In this document: positions 28,861-34,442 of the stretch, in pieces
Layout of the letters: the number at the start of each line of letters is the position of its first letter
Numbering within the stretch: position 1 is the first letter of the stretch
Assembly: GCA_025350815.1 (NCBI GenBank)
Contig: JANXXE010000171.1
Coordinates: 1 to 47,355, forward strand
Direction of reading: 5' to 3'
Length of the DNA: 47,355 nt
Origin: Myxococcales bacterium
Lineage (GTDB): Bacteria; Myxococcota_A; Polyangia; Fen-1088
Translations under genes and position numbers: made by a program
The notes under the pieces: model-generated
The model's database searches: none
The model's input: the letters and a program-made list of their open reading frames with translations, nothing else
Told to the model about the DNA's origin: nothing

Positions 28861-31800
28861 CTACTTGACTGGCATCGGCGGTGCGGCGCCGGTTTGCTGG
28901 ACCAGATTCGGCCCGCCCCTTTGCAGCACGACCAACGTCTGCACCGACTGGACCTCGTTGGTCTCGCGCGCGAAGACCTGCACCAGGTTGCTGCCTGGCC
29001 ATAGCGGAATGTCTGCCTCGAACGAAAGCTTGGTGCGATCACCGCGGTTCGACAGGTAGAACACCTTCTTGGGCGGCATCTTCGAGTCCCGGTTGTAGAC
29101 GCGCACAAAGACGTCCTTGATCTGATTGTCGTCGGACGCGACGCCGCGCAGGTGAACGCTGTTGCCGCTCACGACGGTGGGGGCGGTGGCGATGAGAACC
29201 GGCGGCGAGACCTGCCAGCGGGGCTGGAACGTTCCCTTGGCGGTACCGCCCATCTGAATGTCAGTTGCGGCCACGAACGCCGAGTGGTTGGCCTCAAGCT
29301 CGATGCGCACGAAACCGGCCATTCGACCCGTCAGCTTGAACCCGGCGCCCTTCGCGGCGTGGCCCACAATCAAGGACGAATCCACCGGCGATTCGCGCAG
29401 CACGGCGTCCGCTGCCGTCACTGTGACAAAGCCGCCGTCGGTTTGGACCGGCGGCCCGGGCTTGGCGATCTTGATTTTGATCTTGTCCGTTACCGACTCG
29501 CCCAGCACCGTGTCGCCCACCATTAGTTCAAGCTGATAGTCGTTACCCTGGTAGTCGGCCTCCACCTCATATGCGAAGGACACGGTCTTCACGGCGCCCA
29601 CGGCCAACTCTTTGATGTCGAAACGTCCGCCGGTGATCAGGATGCCTTCCTGGCCGGTTCCGTTGCGCAAGATGGCTTCGGTCCGAATGGCCGGGCCGCT
29701 GCCGATGTTCTTGATTTTGACCAGCGTGTGGACGCGCTCGCCGCGCTGGACCTGCCCGTCGTGATTGCCGTTCACATCGTCGACGGTCTGGTAGGTGTAC
29801 GCGAACAGGGGCCGCGGCTTGCCCTCGATGTTGACCGTCATCTCGGCGCCATTGGCCTTGACGCCCCCGGTGGCCATCAGGGTCGCCTTGATGACATCCG
29901 TGCGGGTCAGGCTGCTTTTGGGCACCTTGACGGTCAGGTCGTAGGTCTTCGCCTCGCCCGCCAGGATCTTGCCGAACACCATCTCGTTCTCGTCGAAATA
30001 GACATTGTCGCTCTTGAGAACGGCGCGAACGCGGTAGGCGGTCGTGGTACCGACGTTGCGCACGGTGCCGCGCACCTTGATGGGATTGCCCGCCAGGACC
30101 TTGGCATCGCCCGCGGCCGAGGCCAGGGTCACCTGCAGTTGGGACACGGTGTTCCCGGCGCCACCGTCGCTCCAGTCGACGCCCAGTTTCTCCAGGGCGC
30201 CCGCCATTTTCTTGTCCTCGTCGGCGCGTATCTTGTCGAAGAAGACCTTGGACGTGCCCAGGATCTCATGCCGCTTGCTCGACTTGGCCTGCGCCAGCAG
30301 ATCGCGCGCGAAATCGACCAGGAAGTCAGTCCGGCTCTCCGTCGCTTCGAGCGGTTCCTCTTCCTCGTCCGCGGCGTCACCGTTCTCGTCATCCTCGCGT
30401 GCCATGCGCTCTTGCGCGGGCGACGGCACGAAAAGGTAGGACAGGACCTCGCTCGGCAGGACGCCTTTGCGGGCGGTCGGGTGCTCCAGGTGCCACTCGT
30501 AGTCCGCCTCCTGGTGGCGGCGCGACGATGTCTGCAGCCGAATGATCCGCGTGTCGTCGGGGCGCTTCCGCACGCTCAGGGGAACCATCTGGATGTCAGG
30601 CGTGACGCCCACACCCTGAATGGAAAGGCCACCGGCCGTCAGGTACTGCGCCGTCGTCAGTTTGAGGCCCAGACGATCATCTTCGGACTTGCCGCCGAAC
30701 GGCACCGGCGACGTGATGTCGAACAGCATCTGCACCGATCCCTTGCCAAACGTCGTCTCGCCGATGATCACCCCGCGGTCCAGGTTCTTGAGGGCGCCCG
30801 CCACAATTTCCGATGCGCTGGCCGAACCCTGATCGACCAGAACGGCAAGGGGGGCTTTGGTGTCGCCGTTGCGCGTGGCGTGTTCGTCCTTTTGCTGCCG
30901 GCCCCCGACGCCGACCATGGACACCAGCACACCCGAGTCGATGAAGGCATCCGCCACCTTCTGGGCCTGATCGTAAAGACCACCCGGGTTGCCCCGCAGA
31001 TCCATGATGATGCCCTTGACCTTCTCGCGCTCGAACAGGCTCAGCGCCTCCATCAGGTCGCGTTCGGTGTTCGCGCTGAAGGTGTGCACCCAGAAGTACC
31101 CGATCTTCGCCGGGGGCTGACCAGGCGCACCGGGCGCGTTCAGCACGCGCGGCGCAGGCTCGATCGACGGCGGGAAGATCGAGGCGCGGGTGATGGTCAG
31201 CTTCTTGGTTCCGGGTGTGCTGTCCCGGTCGATGTAAACGTCCACGGGCGCCCCGACCTCACCGCGCAGGCGGTCCACGGCCTCGTTGAGGGTCATGTTG
31301 ACAGTCGATTCGTTGTTGATGCGGACGATGTGATCCTTGGCCTTGATCCCGGCGCGCGACGCGGGCGTTTCGGGAATGGGCTTCTTCACCGTGATGCGGT
31401 TCTTGCGATCCATCTCGATCACGATGCCCAGTCCGCCGAACTTGCCCTGTGTGGTCGTGCGCATGTCTTTGAAGCTGTCGACGTCCAGCAGCAACGAGTG
31501 CGGGTCCAGCGTGTACAGCATGCCGTTGGTGGCGGCCATCTCGATCTCCACCAGGCGTCGCGCCTCTTCCTTGGGCTCGACGGGCTGCAGGTTCGGCTGC
31601 ACGAATTTGACGATTTCCTGCAGGGTGGTGCGCAGGCTCCAGGGGGCCTCGACCTTTTCCAGCGAAAAGGTCTTCTGCTGGCCGTTGACCTTCACCGTGA
31701 CCTGCTTCGGATCCCGCTCGGGAAAACGGTCGATCAGGATCTCGGGCACGTCACGCTGCAGGTAGTCCAGCGCGCCGACCAGCATGCGCTTGGGGTCAAC

Positions 31801-32016
31801 GCGGCCGCTGTCGAAATAGTCGCGCTGCACGTGGTACAGGGTCTTGGTGAAGATTTGCAGCGACGACAGGTCATAGACCGACGGCGTGGATCGCACGGCC
31901 GCGCGCAGCGACGCGTTGGTTTCAAGGCGGATGTCCCGACCCCGGTGTCGAATGGTCAAGCCCAGGGCCAGTACCGCCGCACCAAGGAAGATCAGGACTT
32001 TGCGGAAACGACGCAT
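28861..32016 (-). CDS. S41-family C-terminal processing peptidase with a long C-terminal extension
   Basis: Serine protease of the CtpA/Prc type, 1051 residues from ATG 32016, which has GGGAG eight bases upstream; an upstream ATG at 32082 lacks a ribosome binding site. One N-terminal membrane helix (VLIFLGAAVLALGLTI) anchors it with the rest in the periplasm. A PDZ domain lies at about 190-280 (GGLGIVIEMDRKNRITVKKPIPETPASRAGIKAKD). The S41 core has DLRGNPGGL, catalytic Ser400 in DQGSASASEIVAGAL and Lys425 in GETTFGKGSVQ. After about residue 530 comes an acidic linker and then some 450 residues of beta-sandwich and CARDB-like repeats, including a calcium-loop-like DVNGNHDGQVQRGE and an SH3-like segment. 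Ordinary Ctp proteases have 400-700 residues. Resembles the long S41 peptidases known from myxobacteria. Confidence 0.9.
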   Translation of the reverse strand: MRRFRKVLIFLGAAVLALGLTIRHRGRDIRLETNASLRAAVRSTPSVYDLSSLQIFTKTLYHVQRDYFDSGRVDPKRMLVGALDYLQRDVPEILIDRFPERDPKQVTVKVNGQQKTFSLEKVEAPWSLRTTLQEIVKFVQPNLQPVEPKEEARRLVEIEMAATNGMLYTLDPHSLLLDVDSFKDMRTTTQGKFGGLGIVIEMDRKNRITVKKPIPETPASRAGIKAKDHIVRINNESTVNMTLNEAVDRLRGEVGAPVDVYIDRDSTPGTKKLTITRASIFPPSIEPAPRVLNAPGAPGQPPAKIGYFWVHTFSANTERDLMEALSLFEREKVKGIIMDLRGNPGGLYDQAQKVADAFIDSGVLVSMVGVGGRQQKDEHATRNGDTKAPLAVLVDQGSASASEIVAGALKNLDRGVIIGETTFGKGSVQMLFDITSPVPFGGKSEDDRLGLKLTTAQYLTAGGLSIQGVGVTPDIQMVPLSVRKRPDDTRIIRLQTSSRRHQEADYEWHLEHPTARKGVLPSEVLSYLFVPSPAQERMAREDDENGDAADEEEEPLEATESRTDFLVDFARDLLAQAKSSKRHEILGTSKVFFDKIRADEDKKMAGALEKLGVDWSDGGAGNTVSQLQVTLASAAGDAKVLAGNPIKVRGTVRNVGTTTAYRVRAVLKSDNVYFDENEMVFGKILAGEAKTYDLTVKVPKSSLTRTDVIKATLMATGGVKANGAEMTVNIEGKPRPLFAYTYQTVDDVNGNHDGQVQRGERVHTLVKIKNIGSGPAIRTEAILRNGTGQEGILITGGRFDIKELAVGAVKTVSFAYEVEADYQGNDYQLELMVGDTVLGESVTDKIKIKIAKPGPPVQTDGGFVTVTAADAVLRESPVDSSLIVGHAAKGAGFKLTGRMAGFVRIELEANHSAFVAATDIQMGGTAKGTFQPRWQVSPPVLIATAPTVVSGNSVHLRGVASDDNQIKDVFVRVYNRDSKMPPKKVFYLSNRGDRTKLSFEADIPLWPGSNLVQVFARETNEVQSVQTLVVLQRGGPNLVQQTGAAPPMPVK

Positions 32017-32234
32017 GAACGGCTCCCGGGCAGCAGGCGTGGCAGGGCTGGACAATTTGGACGGATCGTCCAGTAAATCCATATTTTGGAATCATAGCAG
32101 CACTCGCGTCAGCCGTCGCGAGGGCGGGGCCAGCACAGGCCAAGGCCGGCCGTTTCGGTCGCCGGGTTCCCGCGCGGCGGCCGTCGGTGTCCAAGAACTG
32201 CGAGATTCACGTGGATGCGGCTAAGCTTTCCGTC

Positions 32235-34442
32235 ATGAAGTGGTTGTACGTGGCGGCCGTGCTCGGGCCTGTGTGGTTTGTCGACGTGGCCATTGCGGCC
32301 GACCCTCCGATCCTCGCTGCTTCCAACGGGATCGCGCGCGCGGCCACATCGGTCGGTGACGGCTTCGCGATCGTTGGCAGCGTCGCCGTTCTCGTGGGCG
32401 ATGAAACCACGGCCACCCGGCGCAGTCCTGGGTTCGGGATGACGTCGGAAAACCTGGCTGCCATCAGTCGGCGTTTTATCGCCGCCTTCGGGGACGACTA
32501 TGATCAGTTGGCCATCTTTCTTAGCTTCTCCGACCTGCTGTCGCAGCAGGCGCTCGCGTATCAGTTGCCTGTCAGAAACGACATCAAGGGCCTTGGGATT
32601 GGCCTGTTCGACTCGTCGGCGCAGTTCGGCTCGGCCGGTCGGATGGAGACCGTGCTCAACATGAAGCGCATCACCCTGTACGGCCGGGATGCCGCCAATG
32701 ATCCGGAAAACGACCTCTATTCGGTATGGGCGCAGGAGGCTGCCCACCGCTGGCTGGCCTATCTTCGTTTTCAACGCGACACCGACACCAGTCCCAGGGA
32801 CGACCTGCTGGGGCGGCAGAAGGCCCACTGGGCCAATACCGTGCAGGCCGACGCTTCGTTCATGGACGGATACCTGTGGAAGGACAACGGCGACGGAACG
32901 TTCACGCCGACGGAAAGAAACAAACGCTACGGGACGCTTGATCAGTATGGAATGGGCCTGCGCACGGCTGACGAGGTCCCGCCCTTCTTCATTCTGCAAA
33001 ATCTGACTGACCAGGAGGATCGCCCCACCAAGGTGGTCGCCGTTGGCGGTCGCTACAAGGCCAAGCGGCTGGACCTGACGATCAAGGACATCGTCCGCGC
33101 CATGGGCAAGCGCGAGCCGGCTTCCAGCCCCGCCGCGCAGGATCTGCGCATGGGCGTCATCCTGGTCACCGCACCGGCCAGTCAGACGGACGATTTTGTG
33201 GGTGAATCCTTCCGAATCGACCGCACACGCCGCGTGTGGGACGAATTCTACAACGCTGCCGGCGGCGGGCGCGGCAAGGTCTGCACGGAACTGCTGCGCC
33301 CGTGTCGCGGGCCGTCCTTTGTCTTTGGCGACGCCGACCTGACCGAGGGTCCAGCTGCTTCCGGAAAGGACGGCGTTGTGGCTCCCGGCGAGCCCTTCGT
33401 GTTGAAGCTGCCGGTGACCAGCGCGGGCAGCGAACCCGGTGTCGCCACGGTGAAGATCGACAGCCACGACAAGCTGACGCTCAAGCAGGCCACGGTGGCG
33501 ACCGCAGTGCTGCCGCCCGGCCAGTCGACGACGCTGGTCTTCGACGGACAGGTGCCGCGCGGAACGCCGTGTGGTCAGGCGTTGACGGTGGACCTGGCCG
33601 CGCCCGGGCGCCTCGGTCCGTCAAGGGGTAAGGCCTCGATCATCGTGGGTCTGGCCAAGGCGCATGTGGACACGCTCGAAGATCCGGCGACGCCGACCGC
33701 CTGGCGCGTAAATCCGGACGGCAAGGACACGGCCACGCGCGGCGCCTGGGCCTGGGGTGCGGCGCAAAAGACCACCGCCTTCGAATTTACCTTGCAGCCG
33801 GGGGGCGCCTGGTCCGGGTCGCACGCGTTTGTAACCGGTCTGTCGGGCGCGGAGGATTCGTCGGACCAAAATGTCGACGACGGCTTCACCACGGTCGAAT
33901 CCCCGCCCTTCAGTCTTGCGGGAACGCGCCAGCCGTACCTTTCCTACCAGCTGTATTTCGTCGCCGCCGACTTTCAGAACGAGGTGCTCAAGCCCGACCC
34001 GGCGGACTCGCTGAAGGTGCAGGCGTCGGTGGATGGCCAGGCATGGACCGAGGTTGATGTTGTCAGGGGCATGGCGCTGGGATGGACCCGGCGCCTGGTG
34101 AAGCTTTCGCAGGTCCTTGCACCGGAAGCGCTTGCCTCGGGGTCCCTTCGGTTTCGCTTTGTTGCGGAGGACACAGGGGTGGCCCGCAACATCGTCGAGG
34201 CCGTAATAGATGACGTGGGCGTCTACGACGAGGTCGCGGCCTGCGGCGATGCGCCGCTTGACGGGGGCTTCACGGATGGGGCGGCAACGGCGATGCCGAC
34301 GTCCGGCGGGACGGGCTGTGGCTGTCGCCTGGGGGGCGCCGGGTCGGTGCAGGGAACGGCCCTGTGGCTGCTGGCCGTCGGGGTCGCCATCGGGATCATC
34401 GTCCGGAATCGCCGCCGCCCGGTGGGCGCGGGCCGCTCGTGA
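32235..34442 (+). CDS. Surface protein with a probable MYXO-CTERM tail and an altered HExxH-like motif
   Basis: The protein has 735 residues from ATG 32235. A signal peptide covers about 1-22 (WLYVAAVLGPVWFVDVAIAA). Residues 130-260 resemble a putative secreted metalloprotease family in which the motif HExGHRW precedes an RDGAHW/LGR and a DNGDGTF segment. Here the motif reads WAQEAAHRWLA (Gln167, Glu168, His171), followed by LLGRQKAHWANTVQADASFMDGYLWKDNGDGTF and LDQYGMGLRTADEVPPFFI. The C-terminal half is beta-rich, Ig- or lectin-like. The end shows a Gly/Cys-rich GTGCGCRLGG, one membrane helix (ALWLLAVGVAIGIIV) and RNRRR, matching the MYXO-CTERM sorting signal. The gene overlaps rsmI (GTGA). 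The function is unknown and catalysis is doubtful. Confidence 0.8.
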   Translation: MKWLYVAAVLGPVWFVDVAIAADPPILAASNGIARAATSVGDGFAIVGSVAVLVGDETTATRRSPGFGMTSENLAAISRRFIAAFGDDYDQLAIFLSFSDLLSQQALAYQLPVRNDIKGLGIGLFDSSAQFGSAGRMETVLNMKRITLYGRDAANDPENDLYSVWAQEAAHRWLAYLRFQRDTDTSPRDDLLGRQKAHWANTVQADASFMDGYLWKDNGDGTFTPTERNKRYGTLDQYGMGLRTADEVPPFFILQNLTDQEDRPTKVVAVGGRYKAKRLDLTIKDIVRAMGKREPASSPAAQDLRMGVILVTAPASQTDDFVGESFRIDRTRRVWDEFYNAAGGGRGKVCTELLRPCRGPSFVFGDADLTEGPAASGKDGVVAPGEPFVLKLPVTSAGSEPGVATVKIDSHDKLTLKQATVATAVLPPGQSTTLVFDGQVPRGTPCGQALTVDLAAPGRLGPSRGKASIIVGLAKAHVDTLEDPATPTAWRVNPDGKDTATRGAWAWGAAQKTTAFEFTLQPGGAWSGSHAFVTGLSGAEDSSDQNVDDGFTTVESPPFSLAGTRQPYLSYQLYFVAADFQNEVLKPDPADSLKVQASVDGQAWTEVDVVRGMALGWTRRLVKLSQVLAPEALASGSLRFRFVAEDTGVARNIVEAVIDDVGVYDEVAACGDAPLDGGFTDGAATAMPTSGGTGCGCRLGGAGSVQGTALWLLAVGVAIGIIVRNRRRPVGAGRS

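Follow-up and report, generated by a model that had tools for sequence, protein, structure and literature searches.

QExxH as a clade-wide variant in an uncatalogued family of putatively zincin-like proteins

We analysed a 47,355-nucleotide stretch of DNA from a Myxococcales bacterium (contig JANXXE010000171.1; hereafter the window), in which a gene for a 735-residue protein has Gln and not His at position 1 of an HExxH motif, with the Glu at position 2 and the His at position 5 both present. Judged from the related sequences, the QExxH of this protein is a clade-wide variant of a mixed HExxH/QExxH family and not a private loss. An earlier note on this DNA had described a zinc motif altered to QEAAH and followed by HRW, an LGR...AHW segment, DNGDGTF and a VPPFF string, and all of these were located as described in the 735-residue frame. 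The description of the motif as altered does not hold, as Gln is the inherited state of the clade and is present in 15 of its 15 rows. By composition alone, 0.006 occurrences of a QExxH string are expected in the window protein. Since the string is this rare by composition and is conserved among relatives, a chance match is excluded.

The features of the gene and its neighbor are listed in Table 1. The reading frame is open without internal stops, and a homologue (G002:C5) shares 56% identity with the window protein over residues 20-718. With a probable signal peptide, read by eye, the protein is probably secreted. The Ig-like segment was matched by the Pfam model Ig_VWA7 with an E value of 0.0031 (18.2 bits against a cut-off of 27), and residues 360-453 aligned with positions 665-759 of TIGR03900, the family model of the adjacent S41 peptidase, with an E value of 0.0017, far under its cut-off. 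BLASTP of the window protein against the Ig-like part of this neighbor gave no match to that part (best E 0.34, elsewhere), and the likeness between the two consists of the sub-cut-off HMM match only. A further C-terminal part lies between the Ig-like segment and the tail.

Table 1. Positions of the gene, its putative site residues and the adjacent S41 peptidase gene in the window.
Feature	Position	Strand	Basis or detail
MXAN_5808-family S41 peptidase, divergent neighbor	28861..32082	-	TIGR03900, 953 bits (cut-off 661)
Gene of the 735-residue protein, stop included	32235..34442	+	ATG start; TGA stop 34440-34442; coding 32235-34439
Probable signal peptide (MKWLYVAAVLGPVWFVDVAIAA)	32235..32300	+	Sequence read by eye
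Family core domain (residues 47-349), termed zincin-like from its motif	32373..33281	+	Profile matches; AlphaFold models
Motif WAQEAAHRW: Gln167, Glu168, His171	32727..32753	+	Codons start at 32730 (Ala166), 32733 (Gln167, CAG), 32736 (Glu168, GAG) and 32745 (His171, CAC), then RW; Glu168 and His171 kept in 121/121 Gln, His and Leu rows
LLGRQKAHW: Arg194 (32814), His198 (32826), proposed further metal ligand	32805..32831	+	Conservation across rows
TLDQYGMG: Asp236, Tyr238	32934..32957	+	Conserved; also retained in the probable pseudoenzyme pair L091/L118
Ig-like segment, residues 376-458	33360..33608	+	Pfam Ig_VWA7 and TIGR03900, both below cut-off
Cys motif, hydrophobic stretch and Arg cluster (MYXO-CTERM layout)	34314..34439	+	Sequence, by eye

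The extent of the family was explored with two profiles. One, built from eight proteins, matched 66 of the 377 genomes sampled from the phylum, with five first-look candidates scored per genome, and one of 83 proteins found matches in 60 of 289 genomes from the class, with eight candidates scored per genome. The 179 matches collected were reduced to 166 by dropping 13 partial ones, to 136 by removing duplicates, and to 124 non-redundant rows, the window protein included, by leaving out L042-L062, which had been retrieved by a search pattern that required QE..H. At position 1 of the motif these rows have Gln (66), His (49), Leu (6), Arg (2) or Glu (1; L094, an EExxH protein at a contig edge that is missing the LGRxxHW region). 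Because each of the eight proteins that seeded the first profile was QExxH and some matches were left unfetched (including G259:C614, G236:C52, G236:C274, G276:C73, G561:C1215, G483:C133 and G465:C898), the 66:49 ratio of Gln to His does not represent a population frequency. The 49 HExxH proteins sit on other branches of the same family and HExGH is common among them, as in MGHEFGHQW of L080; what the earlier note says of relatives with HExGH is correct for these other branches. One QExxH member, L050, came from a contig of a Bryobacteraceae MAG, an acidobacterial label outside the window's phylum. The family was also found on L061 (CAMAWH010000001.1), a contig whose record bears the title Klebsiella pneumoniae MAG, isolate MaH-04nov19-8. 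Since this contig contains 3841 of 3841 60-mers of L033 (G213:C1), from a genome drawn as belonging to the window's phylum, its species name looks wrong.

No Pfam or NCBIfam model covered the window core at its cut-off. When 83 cores of the family were scanned, the best Pfam match was Reprolysin_3 (E 0.044), found in two of the 83; where bit scores were given, it reached 14.9 and 14.0 against a cut-off of 22.4. The window core itself matched no family, and the M11 model was absent from the matches of the 83 members at E 0.1. NCBIfam gave no core match in the proteins scanned. By these sequence searches the family is uncatalogued, having neither a convincing Pfam match among the 83 cores nor an NCBIfam core match among the proteins scanned. 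In the literature on MYXO-CTERM proteins and QExxH metalloproteases, the titles and abstract openings among the matches listed do not name it; reports may exist.

Conservation across the 124 rows singled out a small group of residues. Glu168, His171 and His198, the last being the His of an HWS string 27 residues after His171, are kept in all 66 Gln rows, all 49 His rows and all six Leu rows, whereas neither of the two Arg rows has any of them. Tyr238 is present in all Gln, His and Arg rows. The Asp236 column holds Asp in 63 of the 66 Gln rows and in both Arg rows; in the His rows it holds Asp (31), Glu (17) or Ala (1). Arg194 is found in 66 of 66 Gln rows versus 7 of 49 His rows, one of which (L095) looks misaligned; adding the pattern-selected loci brings the Gln rows that carry it to 78 of 78. 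The LExxH proteins (L071, L102, L159, L160, L165 and L166; LFLLELSH and alike) retain the Glu, the second His and the HWS His. Two sister proteins, L091 and L118, have lost position 1, the Glu, the second His and the HWS His altogether and have kept LDxY. Their sequences suggest that they are likely a true pseudoenzyme branch. The joint loss in this pair suggests that position 1, the Glu, the second His and His198 constitute a functional set, and the retention of Asp236 and Tyr238 in the same pair that these two residues are probably structural.

To place the Gln in the history of the family, trees were calculated without the motif column from 135 rows (Gln 78, His 49, Leu 6, Arg 2), in which 12 rows from L042-L062 stayed and L094 was absent. 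Support values are SH-aLRT of quick trees, and no roots were inferred. The window protein falls in a clade with a support of 100 whose 15 rows all have Gln, and which includes L002, its paralogue from the same genome (36% identity, motif QESAH). A homologue that is 56% identical and comes from a different genus of the same family likewise reads QEAAH. The question posed in the earlier note of whether close homologues share the Gln is therefore answered in the affirmative. The Gln label requires at least three changes by the starred branches. His and Gln rows alone require six changes, or five on a second tree also lacking the Arg194 column. One HExxH protein, L104, lies within a nine-row clade alongside eight QExxH proteins (support 99), its exact inner place being unsure (24). 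The six Leu rows form a single clade (support 100) and the two Arg rows another. Because the tree is unrooted, a gain of Gln is indistinguishable from a loss of it.

The codons add to this picture. Gln is encoded by CAG in 68 and by CAA in 10 of the 78 Gln rows, and by CAG in 14 and CAA in one of the rows of the window's clade. The use of both codons indicates that the residue was kept while its codon drifted. Since Gln and His codons differ at the third base only, the occurrence of Gln in 15 of 15 rows points to selection. Between the window protein and L006, the aligned core gave a dN/dS of 0.21 by NG86 with a dS of 1.45, which is near saturation.

The earlier note had proposed a check for an active paralogue in the same genome. 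In a search of that genome, five places matched at E ≤10, only two of them over the motif region and both QExxH; a mixed profile, for which 8 of 27 first-look candidates were scored, returned the same two places. Among the motif-covering matches in this genome there was thus no HExxH paralogue of this family. A separate protease of the M43 family is encoded in the genome. Around the gene, five of the 15 loci of the clade (L001, L006, L007, L139 and L162) have the S41 peptidase next to the family member, namely the window and four loci from four other genomes; the flanks of the other clade loci vary in length, and not all could reveal such a neighbor. The paralogue L002 (848-3962) adjoins a different gene, which by reading of its sequence appears LysR-like, and the same pairing is seen in its counterpart L009.

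The kinship of the core to zincins was examined with structure models and profile comparisons. AlphaFold modelled the window core with a mean pLDDT of 70.8 and the homologue L044 with a pLDDT of 87.0 and a pTM of 0.88, and in both models the motif lies in a helix that follows a strand. Foldseek found no significant match for the L044 model (best E 0.83). In a VIA-align comparison of this model with 999 chains, none scored above Z 3.1 and five reached Z ≥2. The top two, both of them metzincins but too weak to rely on, were PAPP-A2 (Z 3.1 over 141 residues with an rmsd of 4.8) and an alkaline protease (Z 2.4 over 132 residues with an rmsd of 5.1). The best matches of the window-core model, a kinesin (E 0.045) and a phosphatase (VIA-align Z 4.5), were taken as chance; the O-glycopeptidase OgpA stood in row 10 of its VIA-align listing with a Z of 3.4. 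A sequence profile search of the PDB returned fragilysin alone, at a non-significant E of 0.33, with its HExxH in register.

Profile-profile alignment with hhalign gave probabilities against metzincins of 13-39% for all rows, 23-38% for His rows and 14-23% for Gln rows, with matches of 13-43 columns around the motif only, in register with the metzincin HExxH. The metzincin set consisted of 22 segments from 22 loci of the same phylum, picked by the pattern HExxHxx[GN], two of which (L189 and L199) are the same protein. Five column shuffles of all rows gave at most 0.14%, a weak null because column shuffling breaks any motif. At the place of the third metzincin ligand, which follows the second motif His by six residues, the window protein has Leu177 (QEAAHRWLAYL), so that HxxGxxH/D is not found in it, nor is its core recognised by the metzincin models of Pfam. 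The family resembles metzincins such as pappalysin (M43), reprolysin-like proteins, fragilysin and serralysin in a weak in-register match of the motif helix, in sub-threshold Reprolysin_3 scores and in weak fold matches. It differs from them in being without the third ligand His of HExxHxxGxxH, and no significant similarity over the whole domain was found. As the fold searches gave no convincing match, the family is called zincin-like chiefly because of the motif and the way it is conserved.

Substitution of the first His by Gln has a precedent. Heitzer and Hallmann (2002) is said to be the original work on VMP3, a metalloproteinase of Volvox carteri. According to PMC7717551, VMP3 is a QEXXHXXGXXH protease that favors copper, and the same change has been modelled in MMP8. 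The window protein is similar to VMP3, which is extracellular by the title of the original paper, in having Gln for the first His with the Glu and the second His kept. It is dissimilar in that VMP3 has the HXXGXXH extension, while the further His of the window's family comes 27 residues on, in LGRxxAHWS. A diiron halogenase carries a QExxH that is unrelated. Conserved substitutions in HExxH sites are also described for CLCA and other zincin families in PMC3650047. As in those families, intact and substituted motifs are mixed within the present one and several independent changes have occurred. That paper differs from our observations in that Arg and Lys are over-represented there as replacements of His, whereas in the present family Gln is the dominant replacement and the other site residues are intact.

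The other end of the protein bears on its location. Its tail was read by eye as tripartite, with GCGCRLGG (GCGC at residue 694), a hydrophobic stretch and RNRRR. MYXO-CTERM proteins are sorted by myxosortase, as stated in PMC11980579, and the window protein is similar to the proteins described there in its signal peptide, Cys motif, hydrophobic stretch and Arg tail. The genome also encodes an MrtX-like (myxosortase-like) protein (G000:C200; E 4.4e-43). The tag and the MrtX-like protein both score under their family cut-offs, the tag with 9.1 bits for TIGR03901 of NCBIfam on residues 692-728 (cut-off 20) and the MrtX-like protein with 148.7 bits (cut-off 180). The designation MYXO-CTERM surface protein in the earlier note is supported by the layout of the tail and not by its model score. 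The window protein is probably anchored at the cell surface.

How is the conserved Gln to be interpreted? In the reading that we favor, and which we regard as evenly poised between right and wrong, the Gln proteins would have a conserved QExxH variant of a zincin-like site that is active or at least binds metal. The first ligand position of HExxH would be switchable between His and Gln within the family. In the window protein, Gln167 may stand in for the first His, either through its side-chain oxygen or by leaving an open position filled with water, with Glu168 as the putative general base and His198 as the putative third ligand. We infer His198 and not Asp236 as the further ligand since His198 is lost and Asp236 is kept in L091 and L118. 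Asp236 as an aspzincin-like third ligand is less likely because this pair retains it. Such a site would still bind a divalent metal and may act as a peptidase in the extracellular space, perhaps preferring a metal other than zinc, as reported for the Volvox QEXXH protease VMP3. The broader proposal of a large uncatalogued bacterial metalloprotease family with a His/Gln toggle, in which QExxH would be active and tuned to another metal, strikes us as unlikely though not far-fetched.

Alternatively, the Gln proteins may be conserved pseudoenzymes, that is, catalytically dead surface proteins for binding, scaffolding or decoy. Their Glu, two His and Arg194 would then be kept, free of metal, for maintaining the fold or making up a binding site. 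The earlier note had suggested a binding protein or pseudoenzyme that lost a metal ligand. As a private loss this fails, since Gln is in all 15 clade rows; as a conserved pseudoenzyme it is a serious contender, although we lean against it. In HExxH sites the first His ordinarily serves as a zinc ligand, and conserved, non-random substitutions in HExxH families are described in PMC3650047. From the Leu rows it is evident that a residue incapable of binding metal is tolerated at position 1. Since Leu cannot bind metal and the LExxH clade still keeps the Glu and both His, retention of these residues is not proof that Gln binds metal, and this clade weakens the case for a retained metal site. Arg194, with its uneven distribution between Gln and His rows, could conceivably neutralise Glu168 in a metal-free site, but its link to Gln is inseparable from shared ancestry and the three independent pairs on starred branches are too few. 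What argues against dead proteins is that the Glu and both further His are kept in every one of the 66 Gln rows, as opposed to their joint loss in L091 and L118, and that a His occurs within an otherwise Gln clade (L104).

It is improbable, in our estimation, that the core is not a zincin at all and that the cluster is a structural or other metal or ligand site, for instance His171 and His198 with an acid, the HExxH being coincidental. The sub-cut-off Reprolysin_3 match in two of 83 cores and the fold searches without a convincing match are in line with this idea. It is countered by the occurrence of HExxH in 49 of 124 rows, all 49 with the Glu and the second His, by the two metzincins at the top of the VIA-align comparison, even at Z 3.1 and 2.4, and by both models, in which the helix that carries the motif comes after a strand. 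We attach next to no credence to an error in sequencing or assembly, or to the decay of this one copy. The CAG of Gln is one base away from the CAC of His, but the same residue is found in all rows of the clade, the paralogue among them, which makes an error very unlikely, and the frame is open.

Regardless of which reading applies, this is a family with matches in 66 of 377 genomes of the phylum and no convincing Pfam match for the 83 cores scanned. Dead Gln proteins would be an unambiguous example of whole clades of pseudoenzymes in which three of the four site residues persist. With an active site, the series of HExxH, QExxH and LExxH proteins with its several switches would test how far loss of the first His is tolerated and whether the metal shifts with it. 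Should the broader proposal of a His/Gln toggle be true, the family would offer natural His/Gln pairs on one scaffold for the study of metal choice in zincins.
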